Assembly (NCBI GenBank): GCA_040754625.1
Contig: JBFMCF010000060.1
Location: 1-48,884, forward strand
Source of the DNA: a bacterium
Lineage (GTDB): Bacteria; JACRDZ01; JAQUKH01
Length of the DNA: 48,884 nt
Direction: 5' to 3'
Shown: positions 236-48,882 of the stretch, piece after piece
How positions within the stretch are numbered: the first letter of the stretch is position 1
Layout: each line of letters opens with the position of its first letter
Program-made: the position numbers and the translations under genes
The notes under the pieces: generated by a model
What the model was told of the DNA's origin: nothing
Databases searched by the model: none
Seen by the model: only the letters and a program-made list of their open reading frames with translations

Positions 236-1394
236 ATGGCATCGAACAACAAAAATGACAAGATAGAAAAACTGTTTTTCTTGTCCGTTTTTTATCAGTT
301 ATTATTGCACGTATATTTTTCTTTTATATCAAGAGACCCCCGTTTGTTTATTCCTCATGTAGTTTCATATCTTCACGATATTGCCCTTCTCGGAATAATA
401 ACCGCATTTGATTATTTAGCGGCAGCCGTTTCTCCGGAAAAATTCAAACAGACAGTTAATAAAGCAGGGCAGGTATTTATTATAATTGTTGGAATACTAT
501 TAGCGGGCTATCCAAAAATTCTACGAGAATATCTGGCATTTCCGGTAAATATTTTTGAATCGGATTTGGGGAGCGCGAAGACCCTGATTTCAGATTATAT
601 GGGCGCAACAGCTTTATTGCCGGCGATTATTGCGTTAATATTATCTGTCTTAGTTTTATTTACCCCGTTAGAGAATACTGGTAATAACTTTGATTCAGTT
701 CTATATAAAGTTTCTACTGAAAATAAAGGGAATTCTCTAACGGGGTTTATTCCTAAGGGTTTGAGAATATCAAATAAGATTAAAATTACCGTCTTGATTA
801 TTGTCCTGATAATCTTCGCATTTTCTTTGAAAAGGCCTTCACCCCAGCCGTTTGTGTTCAGCCTGCAGAAAAAAATCGAAAGCATCATAAAAAATGAAGA
901 ACGGGAAGTTCCTTCATTAAAAAGGCCATATTCAAAGTCAAAGATAATTGATGATAAAAACACACTCACCTTTTCGAAAAAAGAAATTACAAACTATAAA
1001 CATATTTTATTGATCGTATTGGAAGGTGTGACTTCAGAGGATTTTGAGAGGGAATTCCTAACGCTGCCTGACGGGTTTTATCAACAAAATAAAAACCGGG
1101 CATGTTATTATAAAAATTATTACGCTACAACCATGGATTCTTATACAAGTTTAATCTCAATGCTGACTTCTGTCCAGGTTCCATACCGCGCCTATGCGGA
1201 TGAGACTCTTTTTATTAATGTTAATAACGCGCTGAACATTGCTCAGGATTTGCGTAACAGAGGATTCTATACTGTTTTCATGAGCACCTGCGAATACCAT
1301 CCGTTCTCAAAAAGGAGAACTAAAACCAATTGAAGTTAGAAATGAATTTCAAAAATATGTAGATGAGTTCAACGCGAAATATGGAGTAAAATAA
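236..1394 (+). pseudogene. LTA synthase/phosphoglycerol transferase-like protein, broken
   Basis: The N-terminal part has several membrane segments, as in LtaS/MdoB-type enzymes that move phosphoglycerol groups on the outer face of the inner membrane. It is followed by the start of a sulfatase-type domain (HILLIVLEGVTSEDF at about residue 260, then a YYATTMDSYTSL stretch whose Thr/Ser suits the catalytic nucleophile region). The first frame stops at 1333 after 365 codons, before the rest of the catalytic domain; family members are usually 550-700 residues. An open stretch in another frame (GELKPIEVRNEFQ...) runs to a stop at 1392-1394, consistent with an internal deletion plus frameshift near 1300. 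No clear ribosome site precedes the ATG. An 85-bp palindromic element sits at 662-746. Confidence 0.6.
662..746. repeat. 85-bp in-gene palindromic element, copy 1
   Basis: A 15-base arm at 662-676 (ACCCCGTTAGAGAAT) is repeated perfectly inverted at 732-746. The element is exactly 85 bp, as is copy 2 at 5467-5551, whose arms differ by one base. It is read in frame as an extra 28 residues in a loop between two membrane segments of the host gene, beginning TPLEN and ending NSLTG. The 55-bp centres of the two copies are not obviously alike. Confidence 0.75.
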
Positions 1395-5378: not shown

Positions 5379-6818
5379 ATGAATATATTAAGTTCAAGAA
5401 AATTTATAAATTCAATTTTATTTATAATAATCGCGCATACCGCCGTTTATGCCCAGGAAACGATTGACCCCGTTAGAAAATATCCGTCACTGATACTCAG
5501 TAAATCGTCAATGAATGGTTCAAGAGAAGCACAGGCATTTTCTAACGGGGTTGACGAAAATGCATTGTTTTCTAGCCAGGAAATAGTCGCTGAGACAACG
5601 GGAATCGTTGATGCAAAAATTATTGAAGAAGAAAAAAAGACGGTTAATTTCTCAGGCGAAGTAACAGCGGCATCCCAATATACTTTAAGCCGTGATAAGG
5701 ATGCAAAAGACAATTCCCTGGCCTCTCTGGTTTATGCGAATTTCTTCCTTGATGCGCGTCTAAAAAAAGGCACAAAATACTTCGCCAACCTGGAATTGCT
5801 GAATAACGCCAGCGGGAGCAATAATAATGACAATGATTTTTTGCTTTCGTTCAGGGAGTCCTTTATTGATTTTAATATTAAAAATACTGCATACTTCAGG
5901 ACGGGCAAACAGGTGATCCAGTGGGGCAGGTGTTATTTATGGAACCCATCGGATGTTATTAACGTTGAAAAGAAACCGTTTATAAAAAAAATAGGTTATC
6001 GCGAAGGCACTTATGGCATGAAAATTCATGTGCCTTTCGGCACAAAATACAACATTTATAGTTTTATCGATACAAAAGACGCGAAAGACATTGATGAACC
6101 CGGCCTGGCGTTTAAATACGAGTTTATTCTTAAAAAAACAGAAATGGCGTTTTCAGCGTGGGGCAAAAAAGGGTTTAAACCGGTTTACGCGTATGATTTT
6201 TCAGCGAGAATATCCGGGATCGACACTGTCGGGGAAGCGGCCTTTTCCCGCGCAGATATTGCTGAAAGGCTTAAGGAAGAAAACGGTATCTTATCAAAAT
6301 TCAGAGAAGGCAATAAATGGATTCCGAGGGCAAGCATAAATTTCGGCAGGCAGTTCGATTTTATGGATATAAGCGACAGGATATCGGTAAATATGGAGTT
6401 TTATTATAACCGGTCCGGTTATAAGGAAAATCTTTTTGGTGACGCTCAAACCTATACCTTCGCCCAGCCGGTTACAGTCTACGATTCATCCGGTGTTCCT
6501 GTTGTAAAAACGAGCGGGACGAAAAAAGATTTTTTGCTTGATAACAATCTTTACCAGGCAAACTATCATTCGAGATATTACGCGGCGCTGTTTACAAGCG
6601 TCAGAAAATTTATAATAAGTGATTTGACCCTGACCTTGAATCTTATAGGCAATCTTAACGACAAGTCTTCCATTTTAACGACAGGTGTAACTTACACGGA
6701 CATAAATGATTTCAGCCTCGGTTTTAATGTCTATTCATACCTTGGCCATTCAAACCGCGAATACACCTACTTAAATGACTTGCTTGCCGCGCGGGTTACG
6801 ATAGGGGTTGTGTTTTGA
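5379..6818 (+). CDS. Outer-membrane beta-barrel protein (DUF1302-like)
   Basis: A signal peptide (cleavage near AVYAQE) leads into a protein of alternating amphipathic strands, with a motif RTGKQVIQWGRCYLWNPSD resembling the conserved G+Q..WG segment of DUF1302-type outer-membrane proteins, and a terminal strand ending in aromatic Phe as in barrel proteins. Function and ligand are unknown. It abuts the SIMPL gene and is followed after 32 bases by the BON-DUF1207 gene, giving an envelope cluster. An 85-bp palindromic element lies just after the signal peptide and adds about 28 residues. Confidence 0.65.
   Translation: MNILSSRKFINSILFIIIAHTAVYAQETIDPVRKYPSLILSKSSMNGSREAQAFSNGVDENALFSSQEIVAETTGIVDAKIIEEEKKTVNFSGEVTAASQYTLSRDKDAKDNSLASLVYANFFLDARLKKGTKYFANLELLNNASGSNNNDNDFLLSFRESFIDFNIKNTAYFRTGKQVIQWGRCYLWNPSDVINVEKKPFIKKIGYREGTYGMKIHVPFGTKYNIYSFIDTKDAKDIDEPGLAFKYEFILKKTEMAFSAWGKKGFKPVYAYDFSARISGIDTVGEAAFSRADIAERLKEENGILSKFREGNKWIPRASINFGRQFDFMDISDRISVNMEFYYNRSGYKENLFGDAQTYTFAQPVTVYDSSGVPVVKTSGTKKDFLLDNNLYQANYHSRYYAALFTSVRKFIISDLTLTLNLIGNLNDKSSILTTGVTYTDINDFSLGFNVYSYLGHSNREYTYLNDLLAARVTIGVVF
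5467..5551. repeat. 85-bp in-gene palindromic element, copy 2
   Basis: The arm at 5467-5481 (ACCCCGTTAGAAAAT) is perfectly inverted at 5537-5551. Length (85 bp) and arm positions match copy 1 at 662-746. It is read in a different frame from copy 1, giving a segment that starts DPVRK and ends AFSNGV, placed just after the signal peptide of the barrel protein where an insertion would be tolerated. Confidence 0.75.
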
Positions 6819-21330: not shown

Positions 21331-21345
21331 TTTTTCTAACGGGGT
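21331..21345. repeat. Solitary half of the 85-bp palindromic element
   Basis: TTTTTCTAACGGGGT matches the right arm of the elements at 662-746 and 5467-5551 except for one base. No matching left arm is seen within 100 bases. It lies 43 bases upstream of the radical SAM start. Confidence 0.45.
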
Positions 21346-21387: not shown

Positions 21388-22752
21388 ATGAAAGTCCTTT
21401 TAATCCAGCCCAGGAAAGGGCAAAAATCGATCGGCGGCGAGGATTTCCATATGTTCGAGCCGCTCGCGCTTGAATATCTCGCCGCGGGAATTGAAAACGA
21501 ACATGATGTAAAAATCCTTGATATGCGCATTGAAAATAAACTTGAATCTTATATAAACACCTTCAAGCCTGATGTTATCAGGATCTCCGCCTACACAGTC
21601 CATGTTAATACAACTAAAAGTTTATGTGAAAAAATAAAAAATATCAATCCGGATATTTTTACAGTTGTCGGTGGTCACCACGCGACAGTAATGCCGGAAG
21701 ATTTTTTAACGCCATACATTGACCTTGTCGTAATGGGGGAAGGCGTCCTTCCATTTAAAGAAATAATGTCCATGCTCTCACAGAAAAAAGAGATTGATAG
21801 AATCCCCGGGACCGCTTATATGAAAGATGGGAAACCGGTAATTAACGCTAAGAATGAATTTAAAGACCTTGATTCTGTTCCATTTCCAAACAGGAAATAT
21901 TCCCAAAAATATCGAAAACATTATTACAGCGAATGGCTGAAGCCGCTCGCGTCAATGCGGACCTCCAAAGGATGTAATTTCAGGTGTAAATTCTGCGCGT
22001 TATGGAAGGTCGCGGAAACAAATTATCTGGTAAGAACACCGGAAAAAATCCTTGAAGAACTCGCGACTATTGGAGAGAAAAACGTTTATTTTGCGGACGA
22101 TGAATCGCTCCTCGACGTGGAACGGATGATGACCGTCGCGAATCTCATAATAAAATCCGGTATAAAGAAAAATTTTTTCTTTTACGGAAGAAGCGACACC
22201 ATAGTGAGGCACCCCGATTTACTGGCAAAATGGAAGGAAGCGGGGCTTAAACGGCTTTTCGTCGGGCTCGAATTTTTCAGGGATTCGGATCTTAAATTTA
22301 TTAAAAAAGGTTCAACCGTCCAGATTAATATTGAAGCCGTTAAAATACTCAACCAACTTGGCATCGAAATATTCCCTTCATTCATAATAAGGCAGGAATT
22401 TGACGAAAATGATTTTAGAGAGCTGAAAGAATTCTGCCTCAAACTCGATTTTAATTTTATCGGTTTTTGCGTCTTAACACCTTTCCCCGGAACGGATTAT
22501 TATAATGAGGTTAAGGATAAACTTATCACAACAAACTATGATTATTCCGACCTGTTCCATACATTGCTTCCGACAAAACTGCCCATTAAAGAATTTTATG
22601 AGGAGTATATTTCACTTTTCAATAATTCAAGGTCAAAAGCAAAACAGATCGAATTCATGAGAAAATACCCGCTCCGCGAATGGCCGTCACTCTTCAAGAT
22701 ATATTACAATTTCAACAACCAATTGAAGAATTTGTGGAGGGATTACGAATAA
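21388..22752 (+). CDS. B12-binding-domain radical SAM protein
   Basis: The N-terminal 150 residues have a cobalamin-binding-like Rossmann fold (VLLIQPRKG, DVIRISAYTVHV, FTVVGGHHATVMPEDFL, DLVVMGEG). The radical SAM core has the CxxxCxxC motif in KGCNFRCKFCALW and later strands including YFADDESLLD and LFVGLEF. The usual DxHxxG cobalamin histidine is not visible, so B12 may not be bound. Class B radical SAM methylases and related oxidative enzymes share this layout; the substrate cannot be told. The ATG has no Shine-Dalgarno; TTGATA (21350-21355) and TAAACT (21373-21378) could place transcription start almost at the ATG. Confidence 0.88.
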   Translation: MKVLLIQPRKGQKSIGGEDFHMFEPLALEYLAAGIENEHDVKILDMRIENKLESYINTFKPDVIRISAYTVHVNTTKSLCEKIKNINPDIFTVVGGHHATVMPEDFLTPYIDLVVMGEGVLPFKEIMSMLSQKKEIDRIPGTAYMKDGKPVINAKNEFKDLDSVPFPNRKYSQKYRKHYYSEWLKPLASMRTSKGCNFRCKFCALWKVAETNYLVRTPEKILEELATIGEKNVYFADDESLLDVERMMTVANLIIKSGIKKNFFFYGRSDTIVRHPDLLAKWKEAGLKRLFVGLEFFRDSDLKFIKKGSTVQINIEAVKILNQLGIEIFPSFIIRQEFDENDFRELKEFCLKLDFNFIGFCVLTPFPGTDYYNEVKDKLITTNYDYSDLFHTLLPTKLPIKEFYEEYISLFNNSRSKAKQIEFMRKYPLREWPSLFKIYYNFNNQLKNLWRDYE

Positions 22753-22757
22753 TGTTA

Positions 22758-22787
22758 TTGTAGGGGCAGGGCTTGCCCTGCCCTCTG
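22758..22787. repeat. REP-like hairpin 1
   Basis: TTGTAGGGGCAGGGC followed by its near-perfect complement GCCCTGCCC forms a GC-rich stem with a TT loop. Related hairpins lie at 23029-23116, in part at 23401-23415, and at 25399-25432, all next to or inside REP-associated transposase genes. Confidence 0.7.
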
Positions 22788-22791
22788 TATT

Positions 22792-23381
22792 TTAAACATA
22801 ATTTTCATCATCCTGCCAATTGATAGGATTGTTAATTATGTATTCCACAATTTTATACAATTCTGCTTCGTTTCGTATTATATGCTCATAATAATTACGC
22901 TGCCAAACGGGTACCCCTAACCGATTTAAATATTTATTAATTTTGATAGCTGAAATTGATTTTAAGACACGAACAACATCACCGATTGTTTTCCGTTTTT
23001 CATTATTCGCTTTATATTTGTTAGTAATTGTAGGGGCAAGGCTTGCCTTGCCCTCTGACGTTTCTGACATAACCATTGGTGTTGTATCAGAGGGTAGGGC
23101 AAGCCCTACCCCTACATTAAAATCATTGATCACTATAATTGCATGTATGTGATTCGGCATTATAATAAATTGTTCTAATTGTATTTGGGAAAATCGTTTC
23201 GGCAATTCCTTCCAGCATTTCTCGATAATTTCCCCACATTCGTTTAATTGCATTTTTTTATTTTCAATTCCACCTAACAAACATTCTTTATTCCTACAGC
23301 ATATCGTTATCCTTCTTTCGAATAATCATAATTTTTTAATCTAATGGATCGCCTATGATGAATATCAGGATTGTATTTCAT
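22792..23381 (-). pseudogene. REP-associated tyrosine transposase (IS200-like), frameshifted
   Basis: The Y1 transposase fold is plain: LEQFIIMPNHIHAIIVI with the HxH metal motif, and VWQRNYYEHIIRNEAELYKI with the catalytic Tyr. The N-terminus is in another frame: an ATG at 23381 begins a segment with RSIRLKNYDYSKEG that meets a stop, while ITICCRNKECLLGG is read one frame over, consistent with a small deletion near 23312. A REP pair is inserted within the gene and translated as VGVGLALP ... GKASLAP. Such transposases process REP hairpins. Confidence 0.8.
23029..23116. repeat. Inverted pair of REP-like hairpins inside the transposase gene
   Basis: REP unit 23029-23060 (TTGTAGGGGCAAGGC and its complement) and an inverted unit at 23087-23116 (AGGGTAGGGC ... 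CTACCCCTAC) face each other across 26 bases. Both are related to the hairpin at 22758-22787. Confidence 0.75.
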
Positions 23382-48741: not shown

Positions 48742-48765
48742 ATGAGCGAAATTAATCTAGCCTAA
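48742..48765 (+). pseudogene. Start of a gene cut by the insertion sequence
   Basis: ATG at 48742 follows a GGAGA site (48734-48738) and the consensus promoter, and reads MSEIN before entering the IS end at 48759, where it meets a stop. The gene was probably separated from its promoter by the insertion. Confidence 0.45.
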
Positions 48766-48882
48766 GTTCCGCAGTTTTAAAATCAAGCTTCTTATTTTTC
48801 AAGGGGTTGCGGGTTTTACCCCCTCAAATTCTGCACTACATTTTGTATAAAAACCGGACGATTAGGGATCTTTATTCCCAGC
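48759..48882 (-). mobile_element. Insertion-sequence 3' end (right contig end)
   Basis: Perfect inverted copy of 1-124. Here the presumed transposase frame reads on the minus strand, so both contig ends show the IS tail facing inwards. Two bases after the repeat (48883-48884) end the window. Confidence 0.65.

Follow-up and report, generated by a model that had tools for sequence, protein, structure and literature searches.

A short inverted-repeat element inserted in protein-coding genes and shared by distant bacterial phyla, with a candidate GIY-YIG-encoding parent

Introduction

Rickettsia palindromic elements (RPEs) are short palindromes that interrupt unrelated housekeeping genes without shifting the frame and are translated (PMC10969869). 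The element described here is likewise inserted in frame in unrelated protein genes. RPE families, which measure about 150 bp and encode a conserved peptide, have been reported from Rickettsia, whereas the present element has unrelated interiors, is mostly 59–100 bp long, carries clear 4-bp duplications, crosses phyla and likely has an autonomous partner. Bacterial MITEs (Correia, RUP, MITEAba12, and others) resemble it in being short, non-coding and multicopy, with terminal inverted repeats, target duplications and derivatives arising by internal deletion. To our knowledge, wherever the mobiliser of a MITE has been identified, the parent is a DDE insertion sequence, whereas the candidate parent here is a GIY-YIG element of about 278 bp, and the inner arm bases covary rather than being fixed. 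REP/BIME sequences with their RAYT enzymes, and the IS200/IS605 elements, share with it hairpin ends, tiny enzymes and multicopy palindromes, but they lack target duplications and use another nuclease, and the Y1 genes found here are not flanked by the arms.

Mobile GIY-YIG nuclease genes are represented by the homing endonucleases (I-TevI, seg genes); homing, however, is allele-specific, involves neither target duplications nor terminal inverted repeats, and employs additional DNA-binding domains. In fungal mitochondria, double-hairpin elements are small hairpin elements found near mobile nuclease genes. UPF0213 (1zg2) and Slx1 are the closest solved sequences and folds to the element protein, but mobility is not known for either, and Slx1, a structure-selective endonuclease, acts with Slx4 on branched DNA. 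The present study concerns a 48,884-bp stretch of bacterial DNA (contig JBFMCF010000060.1, hereafter the window), in which two short copies lie within genes.

Results

Two 83-bp copies in the window

A preliminary description had reported an 85-bp element with perfect 15-bp arms. The arm positions, the span and the perfection proved exact, with ACCCCGTTAGAGAAT at 662–676 and its perfect inverse at 732–746 showing zero mismatches, and the inverted pair of the second copy (5467–5481 and 5537–5551) likewise spanning 85 bp. The true unit, however, is 83 bp rather than 85 bp, because the outermost A/T pair is part of the duplicated target. The features are as follows, with strand and basis in brackets.

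236–1333 (+; ORF, no Pfam match): host ORF 1, membrane protein
659–662 (no strand; sequence): left target-site duplication TTTA of copy 1
663–745 (+; sequence and scan): short element copy 1, 83 bp, starting CCCC and ending GGGG
663–676 (+; sequence): left arm of copy 1, CCCCGTTAGAGAAT
732–745 (−; sequence): right arm of copy 1, perfect inverse of the left arm
746–749 (no strand; sequence): right target-site duplication TTTA of copy 1
5379–6818 (+; ORF, no Pfam match): host ORF 2, 479 aa, signal peptide followed by an outer-membrane-like region
5464–5467 (no strand; sequence): left target-site duplication TTGA of copy 2
5468–5550 (+; sequence): short element copy 2, 83 bp, interior unrelated to copy 1
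5551–5554 (no strand; sequence): right target-site duplication TTGA of copy 2
21335–21344 (−; sequence): solitary arm (TCTAACGGGG on the + strand), then TTCA

No partner for the solitary arm was found. A window scan blind to the arm sequence, which sought perfect inverted repeats (9 bp or longer) bordered by 4-bp direct repeats, returned four matches, two of them copies 1 and 2, compared with 0–2 in shuffles. The 83-bp unit and one 4-bp duplication together make 87 bp, exactly 29 codons, and therefore the frame is kept in both hosts; the roughly 28 added residues given previously should accordingly read 29. Copy 1 with one TTTA adds 87 bp translated as FTPLENTGNNFDSVLYKVSTENKGNSLTGF, and copy 2 is translated as IDPVRKYPSLILSKSSMNGSREAQAFSNGVDE, the two being read in different frames (TPLE...SLTG and DPVR...FSNGV, respectively). 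The two interiors showed no similarity beyond chance. The earlier observation of a second copy of equal length, in another frame of an unrelated gene, thus holds: host ORF 1 is a membrane protein that we take, by eye, to be sulfatase/LtaS-like, and host ORF 2 is an outer-membrane-like ORF with a signal peptide, with zero Pfam matches for either.

Three further features of the window were noted. Host ORF 1 stops inside the sulfatase/LtaS-looking domain and is probably truncated or frameshifted. The contig ends form a perfect 125-bp inverted repeat (1–125 and 48758–48882), probably a dispersed repeat that broke the assembly or a foldback artefact. In addition, a different intergenic palindrome family is represented by three related 34–40-bp repeats of the GTAGGGGCAGGGCTTGCCCTGCCC type (22748–22787, 23024–23057, and 23088–23127).

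Insertion in host genes

An orthologue of host 2 in a congener (L403 in G001, 59% identity) lacks exactly the inserted residues. The congener reads ...AQEKIDENSLF and the window ...AQETI-(29 residues)-DENALF, so that deletion of the 87 bp gives AQETIDENALF, and a more distant homologue (G020) reads ...QQLDENALF. For host ORF 1, no orthologue was found among 116 related genomes, and the case for insertion there is thus made by its repeats. Copies elsewhere are also accommodated by conserved proteins: HypD aligned to the solved structure 2z1d has element-encoded residues 185–213 that are absent from the structure, and GlyRS aligned to 8u2q has residues 206–228, in the element region, that are likewise absent. 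Other 83-bp copies in the window's own genome (G000) lie inside an Mrp/NBP35-type ATPase and at the N-terminus of a presumably TatC-like gene. The earlier proposal of a dispersed insertion tolerated in frame in protein genes is therefore borne out by the empty site for copy 2 and the extra residues in HypD and GlyRS.

Copies do not always reside in frame within genes; many are intergenic or lie exactly in start codons. Thirty of 199 elements interrupt the start codon (A|TGAA and similar) of ORFs of at least 40 codons; there, an in-frame GTG or ATG is formed by the terminal base of the element, which is G (A where the arms are of the TCCC type), and the TG of the duplication. Collapsing the duplication returns normal gene starts, for instance in genes that, judging from their N-termini, we take to be proS, rplC, valS, and pgk, with rpmI assigned as a host in the same way. 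The possibility that the interiors around start codons are native host DNA was considered and rejected, given that the ancestral start lies upstream at the left duplication and that collapse restores the normal N-terminus. In four pilin-like genes (L156, L174, L220, and L223) the element lies just upstream of the GFTLIE prepilin motif and the leaders end SLTG|FTLIE, a recurrent target.

A 178-bp copy in the own genome (L038, G000:C122:6356-6533) occupies the linker of an ORF in which what appears from its sequence to be an ABC ATPase is fused to a permease. Its ends resemble those of the 143-bp hairpin-rich intergenic copies described below, and its insertion possibly created the gene fusion.

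Taken with the empty site, these insertions leave us virtually certain that the repeat unit is a mobile element. The opposing reading, in which immobile conserved hairpins (RNA or protein loops) were selected in each host gene, draws on the pairing of the arms and the frequent location of elements near start codons, but it is contradicted by the empty sites and further disfavoured by the extra residues relative to solved HypD and GlyRS, the target duplications, and the unrelated hosts and frames; its probability is negligible.

Arms, target duplications, and interiors

Arm statistics were computed for 199 distinct elements (clustered at 80%), all with 13-bp arms as terminal inverted repeats; these had been recruited by an exact arm core, so the common core is imposed by the search and the statistics concern the flanks and the other arm positions. 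Exact 4-bp direct flanks were present in 124 of the 199 (shuffled mean 16, maximum 31), as against direct flanks of 3 bp in five, direct flanks of 5 bp in four, and inverted flanks in 12. Off-consensus target duplications, such as CGAG and CGCG, also occur. Within elements, the two arms were complementary at position 11 in 187, at position 12 in 180, and at position 13 in 158 of 199 cases (shuffled means 97, 116, and 80, respectively), and from position 14 onward pairing fell to chance, leaving a sharp edge at 13 bp. Position 1 covaries as well (194 versus a shuffled 179, sd 1.1). The inner three base pairs of the arms are thus free in sequence and constrained in pairing. Most simply, this would reflect pairing between the two arms in the substrate; the covariation would also be explained if one arm were copied from the other.

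Element size is mostly 59–100 bp (83 bp in the window copies), and none of the short copies holds a complete gene. Interiors are mostly unrelated, and those of the own-genome copies are no more alike than shuffles. This departs from the close parallel with RPEs drawn earlier, as only the 13-bp arm pair is conserved here. In a 0.7-Mb Nealsonbacteria MAG (G044), 20 copies of 58–59 bp have intact arms, mostly perfect duplications and drifting interiors; given their constant length, the idea that a new interior is built at each insertion was dropped as unneeded. Repeated transposition would keep the arms and randomise the interiors if the arms, and perhaps the length, alone matter for movement.

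Distribution across genomes

In the 2.75-Mb own genome there are 21 occurrences of the arm core, compared with two of a reversed control pattern, and many copies are present in other genomes. Both checks proposed in the preliminary description spoke against refutation: further copies are numerous, and the one window host open to comparison has an element-free orthologue. The congener has no match to the arm core, and the core is frequent in unrelated genomes. Inward-facing arm pairs, with the two arms 50–80 bp apart, were found in at least 117 GTDB contig stretches, and the orientation was inward among the arm pairs listed. Phyla among the matches listed include Patescibacteria, Deltaproteobacteria, Omnitrophota, Planctomycetota, Brocadia, Nitrospirae, Cloacimonadota, WOR-3, Elusimicrobia, and KSB1. 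The element is therefore not lineage-specific, as distant phyla carry the same one. The Nealsonbacteria MAG has 158 arms (control 0), and another MAG (G047, reached via L237) has 176. Unbiased scans for arm plus duplication yielded 132 matches in 1.29 Mb versus two in shuffles, and 45 versus one in part of one Patescibacteria genome.

Length variants were also observed. An own-genome subfamily of about 143 bp (L022, L025, L033, and L034; G000 C28, C55, C73, and C78) is intergenic and rich in internal hairpins (CCGTTAGAG...CTCTAACGG and GCCACCGACTTTAGTCGGTGG), with TAAA duplications in its two complete copies. In the 176-arm MAG, many hairpin-within-hairpin variants of 27–277 bp (L301–L320) belong to one family and seem to have arisen as internal palindromes were gained and lost. 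In addition, one element lies in a predicted viral contig from IMG/VR (L270), at the start of a radical-SAM-like gene; this contig is a possible vehicle for cross-phylum spread.

A candidate full-length element encoding a GIY-YIG nuclease

In the Nealsonbacteria MAG, a 278-bp element with TGAA duplications (C1:61168-61445) has an interior consisting of one ORF, MFYTYVIQSKK...KRFLSLTG*, and an element with the same length, arms and ORF is present in another lineage (G023, contig series JAJYUJ01). Such 278-bp GIY-YIG elements carry CCCCGTTAGA arms. The encoded 86-aa GIY-YIG nuclease, of the UPF0213/Slx1 type, is the only gene found to span from arm to arm; full-length members measure about 275–290 bp, and the last residues of the nuclease are encoded by the right arm. 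The nuclease matches PF01541 (2.7e-16), with Y3, Y16, R26, and H30 invariant and E62 nearly so. Its predicted structure (pLDDT 92) has UPF0213 and Slx1 as best fold matches, followed by I-TevI, in agreement with the sequence. Among element nucleases dN/dS was about 0.1 where dS was measurable, and the gene is under purifying selection.

A homologue search with the G044 protein against 145 genomes of its phylum, in which the arms were not used, recovered relatives in 76. Thirty loci were examined, and of the ten most similar, nine lie in CCCGTTAG-type arms, of the form (C/T)CCCGTTAGA, and one (L379) in a different perfect pair (GCCCGAACACTG arms, TTTG duplications). The less similar homologues among the thirty mostly lack a perfect arm pair of at least 10 bp, and roughly half of the closest GIY-YIG copies are not flanked by a perfect direct repeat. 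As short copies, the second arm family, CCCAGCACC, was represented by only one 37-bp copy in 12 genomes. No relatives of the nuclease were found in plasmid and phage collections; IMG/VR held two, and the one inspected has no matching arms.

The own genome contains an intact GIY-YIG element that has CCCAGCACCTC arms and a TGAA duplication and interrupts the start codon of a WbqC-like gene (L120:1485-1761, G000 C122). A second one, with CCC(C/T)GTGAAATAA arms, is decayed and contains an internal TAG stop (L117:~800-1080, G000 C76). No CCCCGTTAGA-armed GIY-YIG gene was present among its matches, and hence the own-genome copies would be relics or have moved from elsewhere. Truncated GIY-YIG copies between arms (L083 and L368) illustrate the expected route to short elements, and the 83-bp unit is probably a non-autonomous derivative of the GIY-YIG-encoding element.

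Eight genomes with the LTG-type nuclease have 32, 90, 30, 2, 21, 52, 56, and 33 arms, and 20 genomes without a GIY-YIG match have 0–2, except one with 18 (G055). At least 18 arms were thus present in seven of the eight genomes with the nuclease versus one of the 20 without (exact p ~5e-5, phylogeny ignored, 28 genomes). In a genome with the nuclease in TCCC arms (G119), TCCC was found in 23 of the 30 arms listed.

Discussion

We consider it likely that these elements form a family of GIY-YIG-encoding minimal transposons with short derivatives, mobilised by the GIY-YIG protein. With somewhat less assurance, we favour the wider reading that this is an unrecognised class of DNA transposon of about 278 bp, whose sole gene, an 86-residue GIY-YIG nuclease, serves as a transposase on paired (hairpin or cruciform) arms and makes 4-bp duplications, that has spread over many phyla with very many short derivatives, and that remodels proteins by in-frame insertion and by start-codon insertion that re-creates the start. 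We know of no GIY-YIG protein that acts as a transposase. Searches of the open-access PMC literature found neither a GIY-YIG transposon nor this arm as a repeat, in line with the earlier remark that no named family with it was known.

We infer catalysis of movement by the GIY-YIG protein, paired arms as its substrate, and the manner of strand joining as follows. The nuclease would cleave the paired arms at their base; once released, the element would be joined into a new target with a 4-bp stagger and the form TNNA, the 4 bp being duplicated. Short copies would retain only the arms, which would be re-selected at each move while the interior drifted; identical arms could accompany unrelated interiors because selection would renew the former and leave the latter free to drift. 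Insertions would persist where they are harmless: between genes, in in-frame loops and linkers (as in both window copies), and in start codons (ATGAA).

The main competing explanation is that the short copies are ordinary MITEs moved in trans by the DDE transposase of an insertion sequence with matching ends, the GIY-YIG gene being a passenger between the arms. It is typical of MITEs to be short and to have arms and 4-bp duplications of this kind, a few IS families produce 4-bp duplications, and the check for GIY-YIG genes covered only part of the arm-rich genomes. However, a search of the loci examined for a transposase ORF between arms spaced at most 3.5 kb apart gave none, whereas the sole cargo filling the arms is the GIY-YIG gene, in several genomes and with several arm sequences, always as one arm-to-arm ORF. 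This cargo is, moreover, under purifying selection and its presence tracks copy number, and covariation at arm positions 11–13 would be unexpected if each arm were read as duplex DNA. We therefore regard DDE-driven movement as unlikely, though it is the rival to which we give most weight.

Movement of REP/BIME-like palindromes by a RAYT (Y1 HUH) transposase would suit the palindromic arms and the hairpin-rich variants, and Y1 proteins are present in all nine genomes searched; yet none of 30 Y1 loci was arm-flanked, and the 4-bp duplications that predominate here would not arise from Y1 transposition, which leaves targets unduplicated. RAYT was accordingly rejected as the mobiliser, and we hold it to be very improbable. 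Homing-style spread, in which the GIY-YIG protein cuts an empty site, repair copies the element from the occupied allele and short copies spread passively, is slightly less credible still. GIY-YIG is the catalytic fold of I-TevI, and freestanding GIY-YIG homing genes exist (PMC1564403), but homing acts at specific sites and produces no short duplication, in conflict with the hundreds of unrelated sites with fresh 4-bp duplications and the roughly 80–90 arm pairs in some genomes.

Should the claim of a GIY-YIG mobiliser fail, a cross-phylum MITE family with covarying arms remains. If it is true, a terminal-inverted-repeat element with a GIY-YIG nuclease as sole gene would add an enzyme class to the bacterial transposition enzymes known to us (DDE, HUH, tyrosine and serine recombinases, Cas1-type integrases, and reverse-transcriptase systems) and would rank with the smallest autonomous elements so far proposed. 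For annotation, PVR/TPLE...SNGV/SLTG segments in such proteomes are to be read as mobile-element insertions. Being common to Patescibacteria, Omnitrophota, Deltaproteobacteria, Planctomycetota, and others, the element is a marker of gene flow among uncultured bacteria of groundwater and sediment, and the short translated peptides that it puts into housekeeping proteins, together with the start codons that it restores, bear on how mobile DNA creates new segments of proteins.
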